This document shows, in pieces, positions 4,122 to 55,544 of a stretch of 64,000 nucleotides of DNA. Made by a program: the position numbers and the translations under genes. Under the pieces are notes generated by a model that had not been told where the DNA came from, did not search any database, and saw only the letters and a list, made by a program, of their open reading frames with translations. The DNA comes from Pseudomonas syringae (GTDB taxonomy: Bacteria > Pseudomonadota > Gammaproteobacteria > Pseudomonadales > Pseudomonadaceae), in NCBI RefSeq assembly GCF_023278085.1, contig NZ_CP066265.1:186001-250000 (forward strand), in the 5' to 3' direction. Each line of letters starts with the position of its first letter. Position 1 is the first letter of the stretch.

Positions 4122-5558
4122 TCAGCTTTCGTCTGCCTCGTCGTCGTCACCGCCGTCGATTTTCATGCCCAGTTCCTTGATCTTGCGGGTCAGGGTGTTG
4201 CGGCCCCAGCCCAGCAGCACGGCGGCGTCGCGGCGACGGCCGGCGGTGTGTTTGAGGGCGGTTTCGATCATGATTCGTTCGAAGGTCGGCACCGCGCTGT
4301 CCAGCAGGCTGGACTGACCGCGAGACAACGCCTGGTCGGCCCATTGACGCAGCGCCTGTTCCCAGTTGGTAACCGGCGCAGCGTCTTGCGGCAGGCTTAG
4401 CAGTTCCGGCGGCAGGTCGCTGATGTGCACTTCACGACCCGAAGCCATGACCGTGATCCAGCGGCAGGTGTTCTCCAGTTGACGAACGTTGCCTGGCCAC
4501 GGCAGATGCTTGAGGTATTCCTCGGTCTCGGCCTTGAGCAGTTTGGGCTCGACGGACAGCTCCTGCGCTGCGCGGCTCAGGAAGTGCTTGGCCAGCGTCG
4601 GAATGTCTTCGCGACGGTCCGACATGCGCGGAATGTGGATACGGATCACGTTCAGGCGGTGGAACAAGTCCTCACGGAACTTGCCGGCCTGCACGAGGAT
4701 TTCCAGATTCTGGTGCGTCGCGGCAATGATTCGCACGTCGACCTTGACCGGCGTATGACCGCCAACCCGATAGAACTCGCCGTCCGCCAGAACCCTCAGC
4801 AGCCGGGTTTGCGTGTCGGCCGGCATGTCGCCGATTTCATCGAGGAACAGCGTACCGCCGTCCGCCTGCTCGAAGCGGCCGCGACGCAGGTTGGCCGCGC
4901 CGGTGAAAGCGCCTTTCTCGTGGCCAAACAACTCCGATTCCATCAGGTCCTTGGGAATCGCCGCCATGTTCAGGGCGATGAACGGCGAAGCCGAACGCGG
5001 GCTGTGACGGTGCAGGGCGTGAGCGACCAGCTCTTTACCGGTCCCCGATTCGCCGTTGATCAGCACGGTGATGTTGGAATGACTCAGACGCCCGATGGCC
5101 CGAAACACTTCCTGCATCGCTGGCGCTTCGCCGATGATTTCAGGGGTGCGGGTCAGGGTCGGCGGCACGTCCAGGCCTTGCTGTTCCTGAGCGTGCTGGT
5201 TGGCGCGCTTGACCAGCGAGACGGCTTCGTCGACGTCGAACGGCTTGGGCAGGTACTCGAAAGCACCACCCTGATACGAGGCAACCGCGCTGTCCAGGTC
5301 CGAATGGGCCGTCATGATGATCACTGGCAAGCGCGGGTGCTGCTCGCGAATCCGCGCCAGCAGGTCCAGGCCACTGGCGCCGGGCATGCGAATGTCGGAG
5401 ATGATCACGTCCGGTTGCTGACGGGCCAGACGGCTCATCACCCCGTCGGCGCTGTCGAAGCTTTGCGTGGTCATGCCTTCCTGTTGCAAGGCTTTTTCCA
5501 GTACCCAGCGGATAGAACGATCGTCGTCTACGATCCAGACAGTTTCACTACGGCTCAT
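4122..5558 (-). CDS. glnG: nitrogen regulation response regulator NtrC
   Basis: The 478-residue protein is the sigma-54-dependent activator of nitrogen-limitation genes. The receiver domain (1-120) has Asp11/Asp12, phospho-acceptor Asp55 (ISDIRMPG) and Lys105. The AAA+ domain has Walker A GESGTGKE (169-176), the sigma-54-contacting loop GAFTGA (216-221) and Walker B LFLDEIGD. The C-terminal Fis-type helix-turn-helix is AGRRRDAAVLLGWGRNTLTRK, followed by an acidic tail GGDDDEADES. The start codon overlaps the end of ntrB by 4 bp, so the two are translationally coupled. All hallmark residues of a functional NtrC are present. Confidence 0.97.
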   Translation of the reverse strand: MSRSETVWIVDDDRSIRWVLEKALQQEGMTTQSFDSADGVMSRLARQQPDVIISDIRMPGASGLDLLARIREQHPRLPVIIMTAHSDLDSAVASYQGGAFEYLPKPFDVDEAVSLVKRANQHAQEQQGLDVPPTLTRTPEIIGEAPAMQEVFRAIGRLSHSNITVLINGESGTGKELVAHALHRHSPRSASPFIALNMAAIPKDLMESELFGHEKGAFTGAANLRRGRFEQADGGTLFLDEIGDMPADTQTRLLRVLADGEFYRVGGHTPVKVDVRIIAATHQNLEILVQAGKFREDLFHRLNVIRIHIPRMSDRREDIPTLAKHFLSRAAQELSVEPKLLKAETEEYLKHLPWPGNVRQLENTCRWITVMASGREVHISDLPPELLSLPQDAAPVTNWEQALRQWADQALSRGQSSLLDSAVPTFERIMIETALKHTAGRRRDAAVLLGWGRNTLTRKIKELGMKIDGGDDDEADES

Positions 5559-46010: not shown

Positions 46011-48071
46011 ATGGCTTTCGAAGCGATGTTCCAGCCGATCCAGATCGGCAAACTGACGATCCGCAATCGCGTGCTGAGTACCGCGCACGCCGAGGTTTAT
46101 GCCACTGACGGCGGCATGACCACGGACCGTTACGTGAAGTATTACGAAGAGAAGGCCAAGGGCGGTATCGGTCTGGCCATCTGCGGCGGCTCTTCAAGCG
46201 TGGCCATCGACAGCCCGCAAGGCTGGTGGAAATCGGTCAATCTGGCGACTGACAGGATCATCCCGCACTTTCAGAACCTCGCCGATGCCATGCACAAGCA
46301 CGGCGCCAAGATCATGATCCAGATTACCCACATGGGCCGTCGTTCACGCTGGGATGGCGATCACTGGCCGACCCTGCTGTCGCCGTCGGGCATTCGTGAG
46401 CCGGTGCACCGCGCAACCTGCAAAACCATCGAGCCGGAAGAGATCTGGCGGGTGATCGGCAACTACGCCAGTGCAGCCGCTCGCGCCAAGGCCGGTGGTC
46501 TGGATGGCGTCGAGCTGTCGGCCGTGCATCAGCACATGATCGACCAGTTCTGGAGCCCGCGCGTCAACAAGCGCACCGATGAGTGGGGCGGTAGCTTCGA
46601 GAATCGCATGCGCTTCGGCCTCGAAGTCATCAAAGCGGTGCGCAAGGAAGTCGGCCCTGATTTCTGCGTCGGTTTGCGCATCTGCGGCGACGAGTTTCAC
46701 CCTGATGGCCTGAGCCACGAGGACATGAAGCAGATCGCCAAATATTACGACGACACCGGCATGATCGATTTCCTCGGCGTGGTGGGTTCGGGGTGCGACA
46801 CCCACAACACCCTGGCCAACGTCATCCCGAACATGAGTTATCCACCGGAGCCGTTCCTGCACCTGGCGGCCGGCATCAAGGCAGTGGTCAAGGCGCCGGT
46901 GCTGCACGCGCAGAACATCAAGGACCCGAATCAGGCGACGCGGATTCTGGAAGGCGGCTACGTCGACATGGTCGGTATGACCCGCGCGCACATCGCTGAT
47001 CCGCACCTGATCGCCAAGATCAAGATGGGGCAGATCGATCAGATCAAACAGTGCGTCGGCGCCAACTACTGCATCGATCGTCAATATCAGGGGCTGGATG
47101 TGCTGTGCATCCAGAACGCCGCCACGTCCCGCGAATACATGGGCGTGCCGCACATCATCGAAAAATCTGCCGGGCCGAAGCGCAAGGTGGTCGTGGTCGG
47201 TGCCGGGCCGGCGGGCATGGAAGCGGCGCGGGTCTCTGCCGAGCGCGGTCACGATGTGACGCTGTTCGAAAAGAAGGCGTTTATCGGCGGCCAGATCACG
47301 ACTGCATCGAAGGCACCACAGCGCGACCAGATTGCGGGCATCACGCGCTGGTTCCAGCTGGAACTGGCGCGCCTGAAGGTCGACCTGCGGCTCGGGACTG
47401 CGGCCGATGCGGCGACCATTCTGGACCTGCGCCCGGACATCGTGGTGCTGGCCGTGGGCGGTCATCCGTTTCTGGAGCAGAACGAACACTGGGGCGCGGC
47501 AGAAGGGCTGGTGGTCAGCAGCTGGGACGTGCTGGACGGCAAGGTCGCGCCGGGCAAGAACGTGCTGGTCTACGACACCATCTGCGAGTTCACCGGCATG
47601 TCGGTGGCTGACTTTCTGGCCGACAAGGGTTGCCAGGTCGAAATCGTTACCGATGACATCAAACCGGGTGTCGCGATTGGCGGCACCTCATTCCCGACCT
47701 ACTACCGCAGCATGTACCCCAAGGAAGTGATCATGACCGGCGACATGATGCTGGAAAAGGTCTATCGCGAGGGCGACAAGCTGGTGGCGGTGCTGGAAAA
47801 CGAATACACCGGCGCCAAGGAAGAGCGCGTTGTCGATCAGGTGGTAGTGGAAAACGGTGTGCGTCCGGACGAAGCGATCTACTACGCGCTCAAGGAAGGC
47901 TCGCGCAACAAGGGCCAGATCGACATCGACGCGCTGTTCGCCATTCAGCCGCAGCCTTCATTGAGCCAGCCGGGTGACGGTTACCTGCTGTTTCGTATCG
48001 GCGACTGCGTGGCGCAACGCAACACCCATGCAGCGATCTACGACGGCTTGCGGCTGTGTAAGGATTTCTGA
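46011..48071 (+). CDS. dgcA: dimethylglycine demethylase subunit DgcA
   Basis: The 686-residue flavoprotein is of the trimethylamine/dimethylamine dehydrogenase type. It has an N-terminal FMN-binding TIM barrel (FQPIQIGKLTIRNRVLSTAH; AAARAKAGGLDGVELSAVH), a [4Fe-4S] cysteine cluster in the middle (about 350-375: CVGANYCIDRQ, DVLCIQNA), and a C-terminal FAD/NAD-like Rossmann domain (VVVVGAGPAGMEAARVSAE). With DgcB it converts dimethylglycine to sarcosine in glycine-betaine catabolism. A GAGGAT-type ribosome-binding site precedes it. Confidence 0.93.
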   Translation: MAFEAMFQPIQIGKLTIRNRVLSTAHAEVYATDGGMTTDRYVKYYEEKAKGGIGLAICGGSSSVAIDSPQGWWKSVNLATDRIIPHFQNLADAMHKHGAKIMIQITHMGRRSRWDGDHWPTLLSPSGIREPVHRATCKTIEPEEIWRVIGNYASAAARAKAGGLDGVELSAVHQHMIDQFWSPRVNKRTDEWGGSFENRMRFGLEVIKAVRKEVGPDFCVGLRICGDEFHPDGLSHEDMKQIAKYYDDTGMIDFLGVVGSGCDTHNTLANVIPNMSYPPEPFLHLAAGIKAVVKAPVLHAQNIKDPNQATRILEGGYVDMVGMTRAHIADPHLIAKIKMGQIDQIKQCVGANYCIDRQYQGLDVLCIQNAATSREYMGVPHIIEKSAGPKRKVVVVGAGPAGMEAARVSAERGHDVTLFEKKAFIGGQITTASKAPQRDQIAGITRWFQLELARLKVDLRLGTAADAATILDLRPDIVVLAVGGHPFLEQNEHWGAAEGLVVSSWDVLDGKVAPGKNVLVYDTICEFTGMSVADFLADKGCQVEIVTDDIKPGVAIGGTSFPTYYRSMYPKEVIMTGDMMLEKVYREGDKLVAVLENEYTGAKEERVVDQVVVENGVRPDEAIYYALKEGSRNKGQIDIDALFAIQPQPSLSQPGDGYLLFRIGDCVAQRNTHAAIYDGLRLCKDF

Positions 48072-48180: not shown

Positions 48181-50142
48181 ATGCTAGACACTCTTCTTCC
48201 CATCCTGCTGTTCAGCGCTCTGGCCCTTGCGGCACTGGGTGCTTTGCGGCGGATGAACCTGTGGCGCGCTGGTCGGCCTTCCAAAGTCGATTTGCTCGGC
48301 GGGCTGTTGGCCATGCCCAAGCGCTACATGATCGATCTGCACCACGTAGTCGCGCGGGACAAATACATCGCCAACACCCACGTGGCCACAGCGGGCGGTG
48401 CGGTGGCCTCGATTATGCTGGCGATTCTGGTGCACGGTTTCGGCCTGCATAATCGCCTGCTTGGCTATGCGCTGCTGTTAATGACGGCGGTGATGTTTGT
48501 CGGGGCAGTGTTTGTCTATTGGCGTCGCCTCAATCCGCCTGCGCGCCTGTCGAAAGGCCCATGGATGCGGCTGCCGAAAAGCCTGATGGCGTTTTCCGCG
48601 AGCTTTTTTCTGGTCACGTTGCCAGTGGCGGGGATTCTTCCCGAGCACTTCGGCGGCTGGGTGCTGGTCGTCATTCTTGGGTTGGGCGTGTTGTGGGGCG
48701 TGAGCGAGCTGTTTTTCGGCATGACCTGGGGCGGGCCGATGAAGCACGCTTTCGCCGGTGCCCTGCACCTTGCCTGGCACCGGCGTGCCGAGCGTTTTGG
48801 CGGCGGGCGTTCCACCGGCCTGAAACCGCTTGATCTGAACGATCGATCCGCGCCGCTGGGCGTCGAGAAACCTGAAGACTTCACCTGGAATCAACTGCTG
48901 GGTTTCGACGCCTGCGTACAGTGCGGCAAATGTGAGGCGGCGTGCCCGGCCTTTGCGGCAGGCCAGCCACTGAACCCCAAAAAGCTGATTCAGGACATGG
49001 TCGTCGGTCTGGCGGGCGGTACCGATGCGAAGTTCGCCGGCAGTCCTTATCCCTCGCTGGATGGCCAAGGCAAGCCACTTGGCGAACACGGCGGCAATCC
49101 GCATCAGCCCATCGTCAACGGGCTGGTGGATGCCGAAACGCTGTGGTCCTGCACCACGTGCCGCGCCTGCGTCGAAGAGTGCCCGATGATGATCGAGCAC
49201 GTCGATGCCATCGTCGACATGCGCCGTTACCTGACCCTCGAAAAGGGCGCTACGCCGAACAAGGGCGCTGAAGTGCTGGACAACCTGATCGCCACCGACA
49301 ACCCCGGCGGGTTTGCGCCGGGCGGGCGAATGAACTGGGCGGCAGATCTGAACCTGGCACTGCTCAGCGAGAAAAAAACGGTGGATGTGCTGTTCTGGGT
49401 CGGCGATGGCGCGTTCGACATGCGCAATCAACGGACCCTGCGCGCTTTCGTCAAAGTCCTCAAAGCGGCCAGGGTCGATTTCGCCGTGCTGGGGCTGGAG
49501 GAGCGAGACAGTGGCGATGTGGCGCGGCGGCTGGGTGATGAAGCGACCTTCCAGACGCTCGCCCGACGCAACATTCAGACCCTGTCCCATTACAGTTTCA
49601 AACGCATCGTGACCTGCGACCCGCACAGCTTTCATGTGCTGAAAAACGAATACGGTGCGTTTGGTGGCGACTATCAGGTGCAGCACCACAGCACCTTCAT
49701 GGCGGAACTGGTCAAGCGCGGCGCCCTGAACCTGGGGCAGCACAAAGGTGCCAGCGTGACCTATCACGACCCGTGTTACCTGGGCCGTTACAACGGCGAA
49801 TACGAGGCGCCGCGTGAAGTGCTGCGTGCGCTGGGGATCGAGATCAGGGAAATGCAGCGCTCGGGCTTCCGTTCCCGCTGCTGCGGTGGCGGTGGTGGCG
49901 CGCCCATCACAGACATTCCCGGCAGACAGCGGATTCCCGATATGCGCATGGACGACATTCGTGAAACGGCGGCCGAGGTCGTGGCGGTGGGTTGTCCACA
50001 ATGCACGGCGATGCTCGAAGGTGTGGTCGAGCCCCGGCCGCTGATCAAGGACATTGCCGAACTGGTGGCCGACGCGCTGGTGGAAGAAGTTATCCCCAGC
50101 CCATCCGTTGCTGCCAAACGTGAACCTGCGGAGGTGCACTGA
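48181..50142 (+). CDS. dgcB: dimethylglycine demethylase subunit DgcB (Fe-S membrane protein)
   Basis: The 653-residue protein has several N-terminal membrane helices (about residues 1-200), two ferredoxin-type [4Fe-4S] motifs (CVQCGKCEAACP, CTTCRACVEECP) and a C-terminal CCG/heterodisulfide-reductase-like part (DPCYLGRYN; CCGGGGGAP; CPQCTAM). It passes electrons from DgcA toward the respiratory chain, probably with the ETF-like pair that follows. The stop overlaps the next start (TGATG). A TTATCCCCA DnaA-box-like word lies at 50090-50098 inside it. Confidence 0.92.
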   Translation: MLDTLLPILLFSALALAALGALRRMNLWRAGRPSKVDLLGGLLAMPKRYMIDLHHVVARDKYIANTHVATAGGAVASIMLAILVHGFGLHNRLLGYALLLMTAVMFVGAVFVYWRRLNPPARLSKGPWMRLPKSLMAFSASFFLVTLPVAGILPEHFGGWVLVVILGLGVLWGVSELFFGMTWGGPMKHAFAGALHLAWHRRAERFGGGRSTGLKPLDLNDRSAPLGVEKPEDFTWNQLLGFDACVQCGKCEAACPAFAAGQPLNPKKLIQDMVVGLAGGTDAKFAGSPYPSLDGQGKPLGEHGGNPHQPIVNGLVDAETLWSCTTCRACVEECPMMIEHVDAIVDMRRYLTLEKGATPNKGAEVLDNLIATDNPGGFAPGGRMNWAADLNLALLSEKKTVDVLFWVGDGAFDMRNQRTLRAFVKVLKAARVDFAVLGLEERDSGDVARRLGDEATFQTLARRNIQTLSHYSFKRIVTCDPHSFHVLKNEYGAFGGDYQVQHHSTFMAELVKRGALNLGQHKGASVTYHDPCYLGRYNGEYEAPREVLRALGIEIREMQRSGFRSRCCGGGGGAPITDIPGRQRIPDMRMDDIRETAAEVVAVGCPQCTAMLEGVVEPRPLIKDIAELVADALVEEVIPSPSVAAKREPAEVH

Positions 50143-51362
50143 TGAGCGACATTATCCGCCGCGATCCTCGTGCCGAGTGGATCGCCCGTAACCGGTTACA
50201 TCCGCTGCATGCGGCCATGCAACCTGCGCAGAGCAGCTGGATGGGACCGAACGGTCTGATGCGCAAGAACGTGCATGGCCTCGGTTTTATCGGCCCCAAT
50301 GGCATCAAGCGGATTGACCGCAGTGGCGCGCAGCAGGGCGGTACGACCAGGCGCTTGACGGCATCCGCAGTCCAGCTGCCACTGCATGTAATTGCCGCGC
50401 CAGCGTTTTACATCAATGTCGTGCCCGACATGGTTGGCGGGCGCCTGAGCAGTCATGACCGTGATCTGTTGGGCCTGGCGCGGCAATTGGCGGGTACCGA
50501 AGGGGCAGTGCTTGCCGTCGTTTTCGGCGAGCATAAAGAGACCGCCTTCGACACGGCGGGCGTGGACCGTTTGTTGCTGCTCGACGGTACTGAATTCAGC
50601 GGTTACTCACCCGAACAGCGCGTCCAGGGACTTCGTGCTGTGGATAACCAGTTCAGCCCCCGTCACTGGCTGCTACCGGACAGCCGTACGGGGGGTGGCG
50701 AGCTGGGACGGCGCTTTGCGGCCAGCCTCGGCGAGCGACCTGCAACGCGGGTCTGGCAGGTCAAGGATGAACAGTGCATAAGCCGCGCCGGGGCAGGGCG
50801 TGAGGATCTGGCTCGCCCATTGGCGCGTTTGATTCTGGCCGCTGCCGAGTGTGCCGAACCCGAGAGTGAAACCCGTCATGAGGTATTGCCGGTCGAGTTA
50901 TCCACAGCTGTGGCGCGCAGCCTGTCGCGCATCGAGGACCTTGGCGCGGTGGCTGTCGATCCTGCAGTTATCCCCATGGCTGAAGCAGAATTCATCTTGT
51001 CGGGTGGCAACGGCGTCAAGGACTGGGACCTCTTCCACCGTGCCGCCTCGGCCCTCGGTGCAACCGAAGGCGCTTCGCGGGTAGCGGTGGACGATGGCTT
51101 CATGGGTCGTGAGCGTCAGGTGGGTGCCAGTGGTACATGGGTCACCGCAAGGGTTTACATGGCTGTCGGTATCTCCGGGGCCATCCAGCACCTGCAAGGT
51201 ATCGGTGCTTGCGACAAGGTCATTGCAATCAATCTGGATGCGGGCTGCGACATGATCAAGCGCGCAGACTTGTCCGTGATCGGCGAAAGCTCGGACATTC
51301 TCAGGGCGCTGATTGCAGCGGTTGAAGCCCGCTCTGATGGAGAGAGACGTGATGCAGCCTGA
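50142..51362 (+). CDS. electron transfer flavoprotein alpha-like subunit
   Basis: The 406-residue protein has the ETF-alpha C-terminal FAD domain (GAVAVDPAVIPMAEAEFILSGG, GATEGASRVAVDDGFMGRERQVG, YMAVGISGAIQHLQGI, INLDAGCDMIKRADLSVIGE). Its N-terminal ~100-residue extension is longer than in standard ETF-alpha. It is coupled to dgcB and overlaps the beta subunit gene by 11 bp, matching the ETF pair that follows dgcB in P. aeruginosa. Two perfect DnaA boxes (50639, 50898) lie inside, one using the rare Leu codon TTA. Confidence 0.9.
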   Translation: MSDIIRRDPRAEWIARNRLHPLHAAMQPAQSSWMGPNGLMRKNVHGLGFIGPNGIKRIDRSGAQQGGTTRRLTASAVQLPLHVIAAPAFYINVVPDMVGGRLSSHDRDLLGLARQLAGTEGAVLAVVFGEHKETAFDTAGVDRLLLLDGTEFSGYSPEQRVQGLRAVDNQFSPRHWLLPDSRTGGGELGRRFAASLGERPATRVWQVKDEQCISRAGAGREDLARPLARLILAAAECAEPESETRHEVLPVELSTAVARSLSRIEDLGAVAVDPAVIPMAEAEFILSGGNGVKDWDLFHRAASALGATEGASRVAVDDGFMGRERQVGASGTWVTARVYMAVGISGAIQHLQGIGACDKVIAINLDAGCDMIKRADLSVIGESSDILRALIAAVEARSDGERRDAA

Positions 51363-52603
51363 CTCCGCTGTGGATAAGTATGGGGTGCAGATCATCAGCC
51401 TGGTGTCCATCGGCGCGCATCCGACTTCAGGACGTGCGCGCCGCGCCGAACAGGATGCCCGAGCTGTCGAGCTCGGCCTGCAACTGGCTGGGGATAACTT
51501 GCAGGTGCTGCACGCTGGCGACGCTGGCGAGCCTGCGCTGCGCGCCTATCTGGGAATGGGTTTGAGCGAGTTGCACATTCTGGAACAGCCGCCAGGTGCC
51601 GATGTACTGGCGGCCTTGGGCGAGCATATTCGCGATTCGTCGGCACAGATTGTACTGACCGGTAGCCAGGCTGAAACCGGTGAGGGCTCGGGCATGTTGC
51701 CGTTCCTGCTGGCCGAGACGCTTGGCTGGCCATTGGTGACCGGTCTGGCTGAAGTCGAGTCCCTGGAAAACGGTACGGCGCTGGTGTTACAGGCGTTGCC
51801 TCGTGGCCAGCGGCGGCGTCTCAAGGTCCGTCTGCCGTTTCTGGCCACTGTGGATAACGCGGCGCCAACAGCCCGACAAAGTGCATTCGGCCCTGCGCAG
51901 CGCGGGGCACTGACTATCGATGAAGTTGAAGTGGTGGTCGATGATGTGCTGACAGCTTCTTCCCTGCAACCCGCCAAACCTCGGCCCAAGCGCCTGAAAG
52001 TCATCAAGGCCAAGAGCGGCGCAGACCGTATGAAAGCCGCCACCGCCAAGGCCAGTGGCGGTGGCGGGCAGGTGCTCAAAGGGTTGAGCCCGGATGAGGC
52101 TGCGGCAGCGATACTGAAAGTGCTGGTCGAGGAAGGCGTTGTCAGGTGAGGTATTCCAGCCTGACGCAGCATTCATGAACGTGGTGTCATTGTTCGGCAG
52201 CTAGTTACACACAATCCCTGTGCGTGTGCCTGTGGATAATATGTTTGCGGATGGCTGAAGCGCACGTGAGACGGGGCTTGCAGAGGGATGTTCGAAAATT
52301 GATCAGCATAACCTTCGGTTTTCATTGAGGATTTTCAGTGAATAACGCGCTTGCTCACGGCTTTCGGTGACTGATTTGCTCACAATCTCTGTTGGCGTAT
52401 CTGTGGATAAGTTGTTCGTGATCAGCTGCAAGCCTTTTAAACAGGGGGTCTCAAGGTTTTGTACAAAAAACGATCAATTGCGAGAGGCCGAGCACGAAGG
52501 GGGTCTGTATTTCGTCCCTCAAGCGTATTTTAAAAGTTTTCCACAGCAAGGTGCGCGATCGGGCAAAGTTGTACCCAAAGTCTGTTGGCGCTTCTGTGGA
52601 TAA
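50639..52603. other. cluster of seven perfect DnaA boxes (TTATCCACAG)
   Basis: Perfect 9-bp DnaA boxes start at 50639, 50898, 51369, 51849, 52231, 52402 and 52595. All extend to the 10-mer TTATCCACAG; only the one at 50898 is on the plus strand. One-mismatch relatives are TTATCCCCA at 50090, 50968 and 51489, TTGTCCACA at 49992 and TTTTCCACA at 52537. Four perfect boxes lie in the ETF-like genes and three in the following gap. None was seen elsewhere in the window. Function as a DnaA-binding locus is inference. Confidence 0.8.
51352..52149 (+). CDS. electron transfer flavoprotein beta-like subunit
   Basis: The 265-residue protein is an ETF-beta homologue (IISLVSIGAHPTSGRARRAEQDARAVELGLQ; LGMGLSELHILEQPPGADVL; TGSQAETGEGSGMLPFLLAETLGWPLVTG) with a Lys/Ala-rich C terminus. 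It starts inside the end of the alpha-subunit gene with GGAGAGAG upstream. The pair is expected to carry electrons from dimethylglycine or sarcosine oxidation. Perfect DnaA boxes at 51369 and 51849 encode AVDK and TVDN; a TGGGGATAA at 51489 encodes GDN. Confidence 0.88.
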   Translation: MQPDSAVDKYGVQIISLVSIGAHPTSGRARRAEQDARAVELGLQLAGDNLQVLHAGDAGEPALRAYLGMGLSELHILEQPPGADVLAALGEHIRDSSAQIVLTGSQAETGEGSGMLPFLLAETLGWPLVTGLAEVESLENGTALVLQALPRGQRRRLKVRLPFLATVDNAAPTARQSAFGPAQRGALTIDEVEVVVDDVLTASSLQPAKPRPKRLKVIKAKSGADRMKAATAKASGGGGQVLKGLSPDEAAAAILKVLVEEGVVR

Positions 52604-52640
52604 GATGTTCGCGATCTGCTGTAAGCGTTATGGTGTAAGG
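52205..52640. repeat. three imperfect ~50-bp direct repeats carrying DnaA boxes
   Basis: Units at about 52210-52254, 52380-52430 and 52573-52622 share CTGT-N-G-rich lead sequence, then CTGTGGATAA, then a TGTT.G.GAT..GCTG tail. Spacings between boxes are 171 and 193 bp. They lie in the 686-bp gap between the ETF-beta gene and gbcA, which has no convincing reading frame and is A+T-richer than its surroundings. Confidence 0.75.
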
Positions 52641-52835
52641 GTTTCCGGCTTCTGGTTAAAAAACATACAGGCTCTACGCTCGGGCAAGCATATGAAAGGA
52701 CTGCCTTTTTTCAACAGGGGCCTGATAGGGCAGCGCCTATCGCTTGCCAGATGACTGGCAGGATCGCAAGCCAGCCTGTTCCAGAGAGGATTGAGCTGGC
52801 TCGACGCTGAAGGGTATGCCCGGAGAGGAACCCTC

Positions 52836-54134
52836 TTACTCGTGATTCACCGCCACACCTTTCAGATAGGGAGCAGGCTCTGCACCCAGGTTCTCCAGCA
52901 TCCGCGAGCTGTACCAGTCGATGAAGTTGACCACGCCGAACTCATAGGTCTTCGAGTAAGGGCCTGGCTGGTAAGCGGAGGAGTTGATGCCGCGCTGGTT
53001 CTCTTCGGCCAGACGGCGGTCCTGGTCGTTGGTAGCGTCCCAGACCTGACGCATACGTTGCACGTCATAGTCCACGCCTTCCACTGCGTCCTTGTGGACG
53101 ATCCACTTGGTGCTGACCATGGTCTCCTGGGCGCTGATCGGCCACACGGTGAACACAATGATGTGATCGCCCATGCAGTGGTTCCAGGAGTGTGGCAGGT
53201 GCAGGATGCGCATGGAGCCCAGTTCAGGGTTCTGGATGCGGCCCATCAGTTTCTTGCAGCCGACCTTGCCATCCATGGTCATCGAGACTGTGCCTTTGAG
53301 CAGCGGCATGCGTACGATGCGGTTACGCAGGCCGAAGCTGGCATGGGCGTAAGGAATTTTCTCGGCATCCCAGGCCGCGGCGGATGCGGCCACATGATCC
53401 TTGAAGGCCTGATCGGCGCGCGGGTCGGTAACGTCGTCCCATTCCAGCAGGGTTTTGAGCAGCTCCGGGTGCGAGCCGCTGCAGTGGTAGCACTCGCGGT
53501 TGTTCTCCAGCACCAGCTTCCAGTTGGCTTTTTCCATCAAGGTGGTCTGCACCGCCACCTTGGTGTTTTCCATGTCGTAGGGCTCCATGTAGTGGCGGAG
53601 CGTCGACAGGAATTCGTCAATGGCCGGAGGGTTCTCCGCCAGACTGATGAAGATGTAACCGCCCGCGGTCTTGACGTGTACCGGCTTGAGGCCGAACTGC
53701 TTCATGTCGAAGTCGTCGCCCATTTCGGTGCCTGCGTACAGCAGGCGCCCGTCCAGTTCGTAGGTCCACTGGTGATAATGGCAAACCAGCTTGGCGACCT
53801 TGCCTTTCTCGGCGGTGCACAGCCGTGAGCCGCGGTGGCGACACACGTTATGAAACGCGTTGACCGCCCCGTCCGGGCCACGCACGACCAGGATCGGGTT
53901 CTTGCCGATCTGCAGCGTCAGGTAGTTGCCCTTGGTCGGGATTTCGCAGGTCATCCCGGCAATCAGCCATTCTTTATGAAAGATTTCCTGCATGTCGATT
54001 TCAAACAGCCGTTCATCACTGTAGAAGGGCTGCGGCAGCGAGTAAGTGCGCTCGCGGCTCTGCAGCATTTCTGCAGTGGCCTTGCGTGCAGGTTCCAGCG
54101 GATCGCCCAGGCTCAAGGTTGCGGTGACGTCCAT
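52836..54134 (-). CDS. gbcA: glycine betaine monooxygenase oxygenase subunit GbcA
   Basis: The 432-residue Rieske non-haem iron oxygenase has the [2Fe-2S] ligands Cys-X-His in CRHRGSRLC and Cys-X2-His in CHYHQW, and mononuclear-iron histidines in NNRECYHCSGSH. It demethylates glycine betaine to dimethylglycine with electrons from GbcB, feeding DgcAB encoded just upstream. A GAGGGA ribosome-binding site precedes the ATG. It is divergent from gbcB, sharing a 309-bp control region. Confidence 0.95.
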   Translation of the reverse strand: MDVTATLSLGDPLEPARKATAEMLQSRERTYSLPQPFYSDERLFEIDMQEIFHKEWLIAGMTCEIPTKGNYLTLQIGKNPILVVRGPDGAVNAFHNVCRHRGSRLCTAEKGKVAKLVCHYHQWTYELDGRLLYAGTEMGDDFDMKQFGLKPVHVKTAGGYIFISLAENPPAIDEFLSTLRHYMEPYDMENTKVAVQTTLMEKANWKLVLENNRECYHCSGSHPELLKTLLEWDDVTDPRADQAFKDHVAASAAAWDAEKIPYAHASFGLRNRIVRMPLLKGTVSMTMDGKVGCKKLMGRIQNPELGSMRILHLPHSWNHCMGDHIIVFTVWPISAQETMVSTKWIVHKDAVEGVDYDVQRMRQVWDATNDQDRRLAEENQRGINSSAYQPGPYSKTYEFGVVNFIDWYSSRMLENLGAEPAPYLKGVAVNHE

Positions 54135-54443
54135 CGTTAAAATCCCTCATGACCGCATCATGGGCGGCCTGCGAATGTGGCTGATACGGTTGTTGTCGCG
54201 TTGCACGCAAGACGATAGATCAGTCGTTCATGCTCGATTCCTTTGATGCCGAGTGTGGAGCCGGGCGCATGGCGAACCTTGTCTATGGGCGACATGGCCG
54301 CATCCGTTCCCGACGCGGAAGGCCTTGTTCCCGGGGGCTGGTCGCGGTAAGTACGTGAATGTCGTTGATAGGTAAATGGTCGCCTCGCGCGTTACGCAGA
54401 ATCCGCAGCATGAGAGGCCGACAGTCGGCCGTGGAGATCGAGT
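54135..54443. promoter_or_regulatory. divergent gbcA/gbcB control region
   Basis: The 309-bp gap must hold both promoters. In P. aeruginosa these genes are activated by the AraC-family protein GbdR, whose gene is not in this window. I see TGTCG and GGTCG half-sites about 17 bp apart near 54360-54382, compatible with an AraC-type direct repeat, but cannot assign the operator. Confidence 0.35.
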
Positions 54444-55544
54444 ATGTCCCAAAGTTTCCTGAGCCCGGTCACGACCCAGACATGGGCCAACGGGCGTCAC
54501 CTGGTACGTGTCGTCAAAGTCATCCAGGAAACCTGGGACGTGCGCACGTTCTGCTTCATGGCCGACCAGCCGATCATGTTCTTCTTCAAGCCAGGCCAGT
54601 TCGTGACCCTGGAGCTGGAGATCGACGGCCTGCCGATCATGCGCTCTTACACCATCTCCAGCTCGCCATCGGTGCCGTACAGTTTTTCGATCACCGTCAA
54701 GCGTGTGCCGGGTGGCAAGGTTTCCAATTACCTGCATGACACGCTGATTGAAGGGCAGGAGCTGGCGGTGCACGGGCCGGTCGGGCTGTTCAACGCCATT
54801 GATTTCCCGAACCCGAAAATTCTCTACCTCAGCGGCGGTGTCGGTATCACGCCGGTGATGTCCATGGCGCGCTGGTTCTACGACACCAACGCCAACGTCG
54901 ACATGGTCTTCGTGCACAGTGCGCGTTCACCGAAAGACATCATCTATCACCGCGAGCTGGAGCACATGGCGTCGCGGATCGACAACTTCAGCCTGCATCT
55001 GGTCTGCGAAAAACATGGGCTGGGCGAGCCGTGGGCCGGTTATCGTGGCTACCTGAACCAGAAAATGCTTGAGCTGATGGCGCCGGACTTCATGGACCGC
55101 GAGGTGTTCTGCTGCGGGCCGACGCCTTACATGACTGCGGTCAAGCGTCTGTTGCAGGAAAACGGCTTCAACATGGCGCAATACCATGAAGAGTCATTTG
55201 GTGCGACACCGCCCGAGGCCAGGGCTGATGCCGTCGAACAGGCCGAAATCGCTGCCGACGCGCCCGACGTCGATATCGCCGACCTGCATCAGGTGGAATT
55301 CACCGACACCGGCAAGAGCATCCGTGTGGGACCGGGCGAAACCGTGCATGCCGCTGCCGCCAAACTCGGTTTGATGATTCCCAAAGCCTGCGGCATGGGC
55401 ATTTGCGGAACGTGCAAGGTCATGAAGCTGAGTGGCGAAGTGGAAATGGAACACAACGGCGGCATCACCGACGAAGACGTGGCTGAGGGCTATATTCTGT
55501 CCTGCTGCAGCGTGCCGAGGGGGGATGTGCGGATTGAGTATTGA
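54444..55544 (+). CDS. gbcB: glycine betaine monooxygenase reductase subunit GbcB
   Basis: The 366-residue ferredoxin reductase has an FAD-binding barrel (IMRSYTISSSPSV), an NAD-binding domain (LYLSGGVGITPVMSMARWF; FCCGPTPYMTAVKRLL) and a C-terminal plant-type [2Fe-2S] domain (PKACGMGICGTCKV and a later SCC). It supplies electrons from NADH to GbcA. GGAG lies 8 nt before the ATG. Confidence 0.95.
   Translation: MSQSFLSPVTTQTWANGRHLVRVVKVIQETWDVRTFCFMADQPIMFFFKPGQFVTLELEIDGLPIMRSYTISSSPSVPYSFSITVKRVPGGKVSNYLHDTLIEGQELAVHGPVGLFNAIDFPNPKILYLSGGVGITPVMSMARWFYDTNANVDMVFVHSARSPKDIIYHRELEHMASRIDNFSLHLVCEKHGLGEPWAGYRGYLNQKMLELMAPDFMDREVFCCGPTPYMTAVKRLLQENGFNMAQYHEESFGATPPEARADAVEQAEIAADAPDVDIADLHQVEFTDTGKSIRVGPGETVHAAAAKLGLMIPKACGMGICGTCKVMKLSGEVEMEHNGGITDEDVAEGYILSCCSVPRGDVRIEY

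Follow-up and report, generated by a model that had tools for sequence, protein, structure and literature searches.

Why would about 2 kb of a Pseudomonas chromosome, well outside the replication origin oriC, hold a dense cluster of perfect binding sites for the initiator DnaA (DnaA boxes)? The cluster lies in a window of 64,000 nucleotides of Pseudomonas syringae (RefSeq assembly GCF_023278085.1, contig NZ_CP066265.1, positions 186,001 to 250,000), which is the whole stretch analysed here. It begins at position 50639, crosses two genes that we take to be etfB-like and etfA-like, and extends to about 52670 in the intergenic space behind them. A sequence-only reading of this DNA had proposed a candidate locus for DnaA titration or replication control, and had likened its box density to that of Escherichia coli datA or the Bacillus DnaA-box clusters. 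The anatomy and conservation described below support a predicted role in replication control and point to a mechanism other than titration. The locus is probably a tandem array of three elements of the type of E. coli DARS1 (DnaA-reactivating sequence 1), together with further boxes in etfB and etfA. On our best reading of the sequence, this array would promote initiation rather than act by datA-like titration.

A cluster of perfect DnaA boxes close to oriC

Seven perfect boxes (TTATCCACA) start at 50639, 50898, 51369, 51849, 52231, 52402 and 52595, within 1.97 kb, and all seven extend to TTATCCACAG, as the sequence-only reading had reported. The 64-kb window holds no other perfect box, with 0.17 expected from dinucleotide shuffling. 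Five one-mismatch boxes were also found among or just before the perfect ones, as claimed (49992, 50090, 50968, 51489 and 52537); the nearest one apart from these, which had been placed at 4634, is at 46838.

A genome-wide count, which had been proposed as a check, gave 105 perfect boxes in the 5.60 Mb of this genome (two contigs), compared with 21 copies of the reversed 9-mer used as a control. Statistics on box positions in this genome rest on 100 of the 105 boxes. Among these 100, the cluster is the densest 2 kb with 7 boxes, and the oriC region comes second with 5. The oriC boxes, four of them perfect, adjoin dnaA (C1:5431615-5431879), and the cluster lies 347 kb away, or 6.3% of the chromosome. 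On contig C1, perfect boxes become much sparser away from oriC, and none of the 100 lies more than 2 Mb from it.

The cluster could in principle be part of an ordinary excess of DnaA boxes near the origin and have no special function, as 85 of the 100 boxes are less than 1 Mb from oriC (36% expected; 7 of 21 for the control). However, the Poisson expectation over the genome for at least 7 boxes in 2 kb is 6e-11 at the global box rate, and still 9e-8 if the local rate of the region up to 0.5 Mb from oriC is used. The density of the cluster is therefore not due to chance, even though origin-proximal boxes are common in general. As shown below, an ordinary excess is also contradicted by conservation, and we consider it very improbable.

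The intergenic boxes are parts of composite units

The three last perfect boxes lie in an intergenic site (52150-52835) between the etfA and gbcA open reading frames (ORFs), and each of them is box III of a unit of about 93 bp. In this unit, a forward box (box I) is followed 14 bp on by a reverse box (box II), 12 bp further by the perfect reverse box, and then by a dyad. Scores below are from R2, an Infernal model built without E. coli sequences, and from a profile derived from alignment A4.

52203 to 52292, forward strand: DARS1-like unit 1 (R2 64.6 bits, E 4.3e-19; profile score 86.1; high by construction, as this unit is a row of A4)
52205 to 52213 (forward), 52219 to 52227 (reverse, weak) and 52231 to 52239 (reverse, perfect): boxes I, II and III of unit 1
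about 52255 to 52284: dyad of unit 1
52374 to 52463, forward strand: DARS1-like unit 2 (R2 62.1 bits, E 2.5e-18; also a row of A4)
52376 to 52384, 52390 to 52398 and 52402 to 52410: boxes I, II and III of unit 2, with the dyad behind
52566 to 52656, forward strand: DARS1-like unit 3 (R2 57.5 bits, E 6.9e-17; also a row of A4)
52569 to 52577, 52583 to 52591 and 52595 to 52603: boxes I, II and III of unit 3, with the dyad behind
52288 to 52305, forward strand: A-tract plus TGATCA element (TGTTCGAAAATTGATCAG) behind unit 1, its position kept behind the units of relatives in an A or T form
52459 to 52480, forward strand: A-tract plus GATCA element behind unit 2
52652 to 52670, forward strand: A-tract element behind unit 3
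52537 to 52545, forward strand: one-mismatch box TTTTCCACA between units 2 and 3

Alignment A4 contains 60 Pseudomonas units, namely 16 array units, 40 hand-picked satellite units located elsewhere in the genomes, and 4 units of locus L147. The satellite units were picked from matches with E up to 0.02, and unit positions were set by the best-scoring place; one row (L150) of alignment A3 is misaligned.

The composite layout is common to 236 of 257 intergenic boxes, which carry TTRYCCMCA 26 bp before the box. Selection of these 236 units required a perfect or near-perfect box together with a weak-box score of at least 7, so that the columns concerned are conserved by choice. The flanking columns CTGT at -13 to -10 (98-99%) and TGTT at +11 to +14 (99-100%) were unselected in this set, but were selected in the stricter set used for spacings. 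Behind box III, Pseudomonas units carry the dyad CTGCARGCC-N11-GGCYTGCAG. Furthermore, a TTTTCCACAG motif is conserved before unit 3 (consensus of 53 loci with at least 4 boxes; alignment of 12). The tract behind each unit (e.g. 52459-52480) keeps its place, whether as a run of A or of T, and is often accompanied by TGATCA; we matched it to no known site.

Units are regularly spaced. Of the 202 spacings under 240 bp, 193 fall at 129, 149-150, 160-161, 171-172, 181-183 or 192-193 bp, with a step of about 10.6 bp (p 1e-4 in a permutation test on the 20 distinct values), suggesting that the units are placed on one face of the helix.

The units share their layout with E. coli DARS1

In E. coli, DARS elements have a common core in which the boxes are equally spaced and box I is opposite to boxes II and III, according to passages in PMC5742627; parts of PMC5742627, PMC4585315 and PMC10380432 describe this core together with a DARS1 regulatory region of about 50 bp, and PMC10380432 states in a passage that the head-to-head pair I/II is functionally essential. 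We compared the Pseudomonas units with the control sites of strain MG1655. DARS1 boxes start at 1308(+), 1322(-) and 1334(-) of L159, and DARS2 core boxes at 1636(+), 1650(-) and 1662(-) of L160, i.e. at steps of +14 and +12. The Pseudomonas boxes, at -26(+), -12(-) and 0(-), have the same steps and orientations (9-5-9-3-9). The units thus have the fixed spacing of the three-box core and, as far as geometry goes, the head-to-head arrangement of boxes I and II. As in DARS1, they are intergenic, and behind their core the dyad block matches in register that of the DARS1 regulatory region. This layout (forward, +14 reverse, +12 reverse) is absent from datA and from the oriC of this genome.

The likeness extends beyond the core. 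When profile columns 57-83, which cover the dyad in the matrix from the 60 A4 units, were placed on DARS1, they scored 16.8 bits in the exact register and below zero at each of the 30 others between -15 and +15; none of 4,000,000 random sequences scored as high. The whole Pseudomonas-only profile gave +23.1 for DARS1, -21.0 for the second-best site, the DARS2 core, and -28.7 or less for the rest of a background of about 110 kb of E. coli DNA rather than the genome; on two simulated 4.64-Mb genomes it reached at most -5.0. R2 also found DARS1 (14.2 bits, E 0.0022 in 89 kb), with an ungapped alignment over positions 3-85 of 93. On DARS2 the core was present and the dyad was not found (p 0.14).

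These comparisons bear directly on the titration model, in which the cluster would be a datA-like site that sequesters DnaA or promotes hydrolysis of ATP-DnaA (datA-dependent DnaA-ATP hydrolysis, DDAH), thereby restraining initiation. Such a role would agree with seven perfect boxes in the densest 2 kb among the 100 located boxes, and with a distance of the array from oriC (5.7-9.2% of the chromosome, see below) nearer to that of datA (10% in MG1655) than to those of DARS1 and DARS2; origin-near box density has been put forward for titration in E. coli in part of PMC12371093. However, the unit resembles DARS1 in both core and flank, and datA is without that layout. Furthermore, datA needs a site for integration host factor (IHF) among its essential boxes. 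The IHF consensus site WATCAANNNNTTR, allowing at most one mismatch, is not constant in Pseudomonas arrays: a single site with one mismatch occurs in 50600-52800, 36 of 71 arrays have none, and the 71 arrays together have 57 matches, with 40 expected. We rejected an IHF-site requirement for the array on this ground. Titration as the main function, one of the two roles named in the sequence-only reading, is thus unlikely, and some titration by seven strong boxes is possible as a side effect of a DARS1-type array.

The array is kept in close relatives

We examined 80 Pseudomonas loci with an etfB relative, the best 80 of 271; related species among them are not independent. Units form tandem arrays of 2-4, with at least two units after etfA in the flank at 64 of the 80 loci, at least three at 61 and at least four at 50. 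Sixteen loci had no boxes after etfA, and 4 of these were ended by contig ends, leaving 76 testable loci. The genomes of the remaining 12, whose flanks were complete, all carry arrays: 6-13 kb past etfA in five (L043, L044, L051, L062, L093), some 32 and 45 kb away on the same contig and in the opposite direction in L050 and L046, and on another contig in L040, L042, L045, L047 and L092. Of the 76 testable loci, 69 therefore have the array no more than 14 kb from etfA. The seven loci with a displaced array (L040, L042, L045, L046, L047, L050, L092) keep at least two coding boxes.

The genes and their boxes in the window are as follows; the genes were identified as ORFs, and their names, which for etfB and etfA agree with the sequence-only reading, are putative.

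50142 to 51362, forward strand: etfB-like gene, hosting two boxes
51313 to 52149, forward strand: etfA-like gene, hosting two boxes and ending just before the array
52836 to 54134, reverse strand: gbcA-like gene, its 3' end facing the array (convergent)
50639 to 50647, reverse strand: perfect box in etfB, codons GTG GAT AAC, perfect in 78 of 80 loci
50898 to 50906, forward strand: perfect box in etfB, codons TTA TCC ACA, perfect in 75 of 80 loci
51369 to 51377, reverse strand: perfect box at the start of etfA, with a counterpart at 51369-51393 in many close relatives and none in most others
51849 to 51857, reverse strand: perfect box in etfA, codons GTG GAT AAC; present at 51842-51873 in many relatives, not all

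The two etfB boxes are conserved at the DNA level. Their codons are among the most conserved of the gene, the top codon reaching 95-100% compared with a median of 74% over 309 eligible codons in 81 species. Each codon of the 50639 box is the same in at least 98.7% of the species, above 96% of eligible codons. In the 50898 box, Leu is encoded by TTA in 77 of 81 species and by TTG in the other 4, and TTA is rare in etfB, accounting for 99 of 2759 Leu codons, 77 of which are at this very site. The retention of this codon, as well as that of phased composite units from which up to 13 kb may separate etfA, speaks against an ordinary excess of origin-proximal boxes.

According to the sequence-only reading, a loss of boxes in close relatives that keep the genes would refute its claim. 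In the close relatives the etfB boxes stay, in 78 and 75 of 80 loci. The result differed in more distant species. Of 21 complete genomes with an etfB match, 20 were compared, and 8 of these keep the genes without a perfect box at the locus. Ten of the 20 have the array and both coding boxes, L133 is intermediate, and in L139 two boxes are intergenic and none is coding. The eight genomes each have matches elsewhere to R1, a model of the unit, at E up to 0.02, some of which may be due to chance.

An extra perfect box near the end of a dgcA-like gene, at 47995-48032 on the scale of the window, occurs in 15 of 80 loci (L055, L056, L058, L061, L064, L065, L073, L077, L079, L081, L086, L088, L094, L096 and L108) and is absent from the window. 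Where gbcA was found in relatives, the distance from the last unit to the gene is about 100-380 bp or 0.9-2.8 kb; at many loci the flank does not contain gbcA, and at L090 a lone box beyond gbcA blurs the distance measure.

Across the genus, R1 matched 196 of 199 genomes at E up to 1e-3. In a 145-genome sample of the order, 4 genomes matched at E up to 1e-4, namely the P. syringae genome itself and three of another genus. In G319, one genome from a neighbouring genus of the same family, no perfect box lies closer than 12 kb to etfB. This genome has DARS1-like units away from the etf genes, three at L204 and one at L205. A weaker DARS1-like match (score 12.2) is found at L206 210-302 in G269, of another family of the order, with two perfect reverse boxes, a dyad-like stretch, and a box II closer to E. 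coli DARS1 than that of array units. From these few genomes, the unit is likely older than the array.

Arrays and satellite units lie around oriC

R1 matches concentrate around oriC, with 131 of 139 within 0.2 chromosome lengths compared with 40% expected, in 22 complete genomes plus that of P. syringae; matches were taken at E up to 0.02, so that some may be due to chance, and genome lengths other than that of P. syringae were rounded to 0.1 Mb. The etf array is 5.7-9.2% of the chromosome from oriC in 13 complete genomes, on either arm (-490 to -647 kb in 7 genomes, +327 to +395 kb in 6). Its direction relative to the replication fork is the same in 13 of 13, the pattern that inversions around oriC would give by exchanging the arms. 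A fourteenth genome, G164, has two units at etfB, at +307 kb, in the opposite direction.

Satellite matches are mostly about 470-990 kb from oriC. In the P. syringae genome R2 gives ten units, three of them in the array, the next match having E 0.07. Three further pairs of DARS1-like units were observed there: C1:405289/405401 (405289-405489, L208) at about +515 kb, C1:700332/700497 (700332-700586, L151) at about +810 kb, and C1:4769607/4769970 (4769607-4770059, L150) at about -662 kb from oriC. A weaker unit lies on the terminus side (C1:3100356-3100435, L209; R2 E 1.2e-5, profile score only -1.4). In one complete genome, L147 2531-3024 holds four tandem satellite units spaced 133-134 bp apart, 914 kb from oriC.

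A second or latent replication origin would also be rich in DnaA boxes, and the intergenic stretch is richer in A+T (44-53% GC compared with about 60%); part of PMC4403523 describes a second autonomously replicating element in P. aeruginosa, whose place was not located. However, the GC skew keeps its sign across the cluster (overlapping 8-kb windows, 44 to 60 kb), oriC with four perfect boxes already adjoins dnaA, and the neighbouring-genus genome is without a perfect box near etfB. We rejected this reading for want of a GC-skew switch and regard it as highly unlikely. A copy of oriC was likewise rejected, as no unit was found in L111 or L112, though R2 scores the oriC of this genome at 11.5 bits by its boxes.

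The boxes and dyads might instead regulate nearby genes or form hairpins in a transcript, as the dyad pairs in 68.7% of cells compared with 30-45% when slid. However, pairing and covariation equalled those of shuffles, and no Rfam match was found in 49000-54500 up to E 1, so an RNA element was rejected. We also rejected a promoter or terminator, as the array showed no excess of either; moreover, it lies between two 3' ends in the window and its neighbours differ between species. Such a role is the least probable of the alternatives.

Points that weigh against DARS1-type elements

Several observations weigh against our identification of the units as DARS1-type elements. The main doubt is the weak box II of array units. 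It is degenerate (TGTTGGCG), with a mean of 4.46 of 9 matches over the 236 units (background 2.3, sd 1.0), and among unselected offsets +56 scores higher (4.78), so that box II is not established by box likeness alone. Satellite units, which mostly have TGTGG there, have a better predicted box II. Furthermore, the Infernal margin is small: R2 gives 11.5 bits (E 0.016) to the oriC of P. syringae and 11.0 bits to a DARS2 box outside the core. Neither the 17 bp that separate the core from the dyad (p 0.19) nor the tail (p 0.18) showed likeness to DARS1, and the dyad showed no covariation beyond shuffles. Of the 76 close loci, 7 have the array away from etfA, and the perfect box is missing from the etf locus in the 8 of 20 complete genomes, which are also the more distant ones, with relatedness as a confound.

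The place of the array adds to these points. DARS1 and DARS2 lie 33% and 21% of the chromosome from oriC in E. coli, well away from it compared with the Pseudomonas arrays, and moving DARS2 near oriC moderately inhibited timely initiation, according to a passage in PMC5742627. From both, an origin-near DARS was unexpected. The distant place is a habit of the relatives of E. coli and was not used here as a defining feature of DARS.

Discussion

If the array works as DARS1 does, DnaA would bind its units, and ADP-DnaA would be converted there into ATP-DnaA. Tandem phased copies could raise the output or cooperativity of this reaction. Being 347 kb from oriC, the array would be copied soon after initiation, so that its dose would double early in the cycle.

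A broader proposal is that the phased DARS1 row and the satellite units that ring oriC out to about 1 Mb together time Pseudomonas replication, that Pseudomonas and E. coli share an ancient DARS1 machinery in which the dyad and A-tract are the site of a further factor or a signal in DNA shape, and that the etfB and etfA boxes belong to the same system. We advance this joint proposal only tentatively, and hold it less probable because the etfB boxes persist in close relatives whose array is found elsewhere.

The reactivation of ADP-DnaA has been studied in detail in E. coli, and little is known of the timing of initiation in Pseudomonas. To our knowledge, Pseudomonas lacks Dam and SeqA. If the array works as predicted, the genus would use a multi-copy version of an element that is single-copy in E. 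coli, and the dyad common to Pseudomonas units and DARS1 would provide a concrete motif for the DARS1 regulatory region. A passage in PMC5742627 reports that this region enhances ADP release in vitro and that what it does in vivo was still to be determined. According to part of PMC10380432, many proteobacteria have DARS-like sequences. No report of DARS elements in Pseudomonas was found in the titles and abstract openings searched, which is not proof of novelty; as far as this literature shows, the tandem form is new.

Comparison with known systems

Like the Pseudomonas locus, E. coli datA is a cluster of DnaA boxes at a similar relative distance from oriC. It has no DARS-type unit, and a constant IHF site of its kind is absent from Pseudomonas arrays. 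The DnaA-box clusters of Bacillus and the cluster of Streptomyces likewise have several strong boxes away from oriC. E. coli DARS2 shares the spacing and orientation of the core and was the second-best profile match in the E. coli DNA scanned. DARS2 uses IHF and Fis, as stated in a passage of PMC5742627; in contrast, Pseudomonas arrays have no constant IHF consensus site.

The closest counterpart is E. coli DARS1 (101 bp, between bioD and uvrB), which has the same box order, orientation and +14/+12 steps, a similar total length and an intergenic position. Its spacer ATTCC resembles ATYCC in several Pseudomonas units, and its dyad GCAAGC-N13-GCTTGC lies 26 bp from box III, the offset at which the Pseudomonas dyad is found. 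The two differ in that box II is the perfect box in DARS1, whereas it is box III in Pseudomonas units. Unlike DARS1, the Pseudomonas elements are followed by an A- or T-tract, often with TGATCA, are accompanied by extra boxes in neighbouring genes, and occur nearer to oriC as 2-4 tandem phased copies with satellites.

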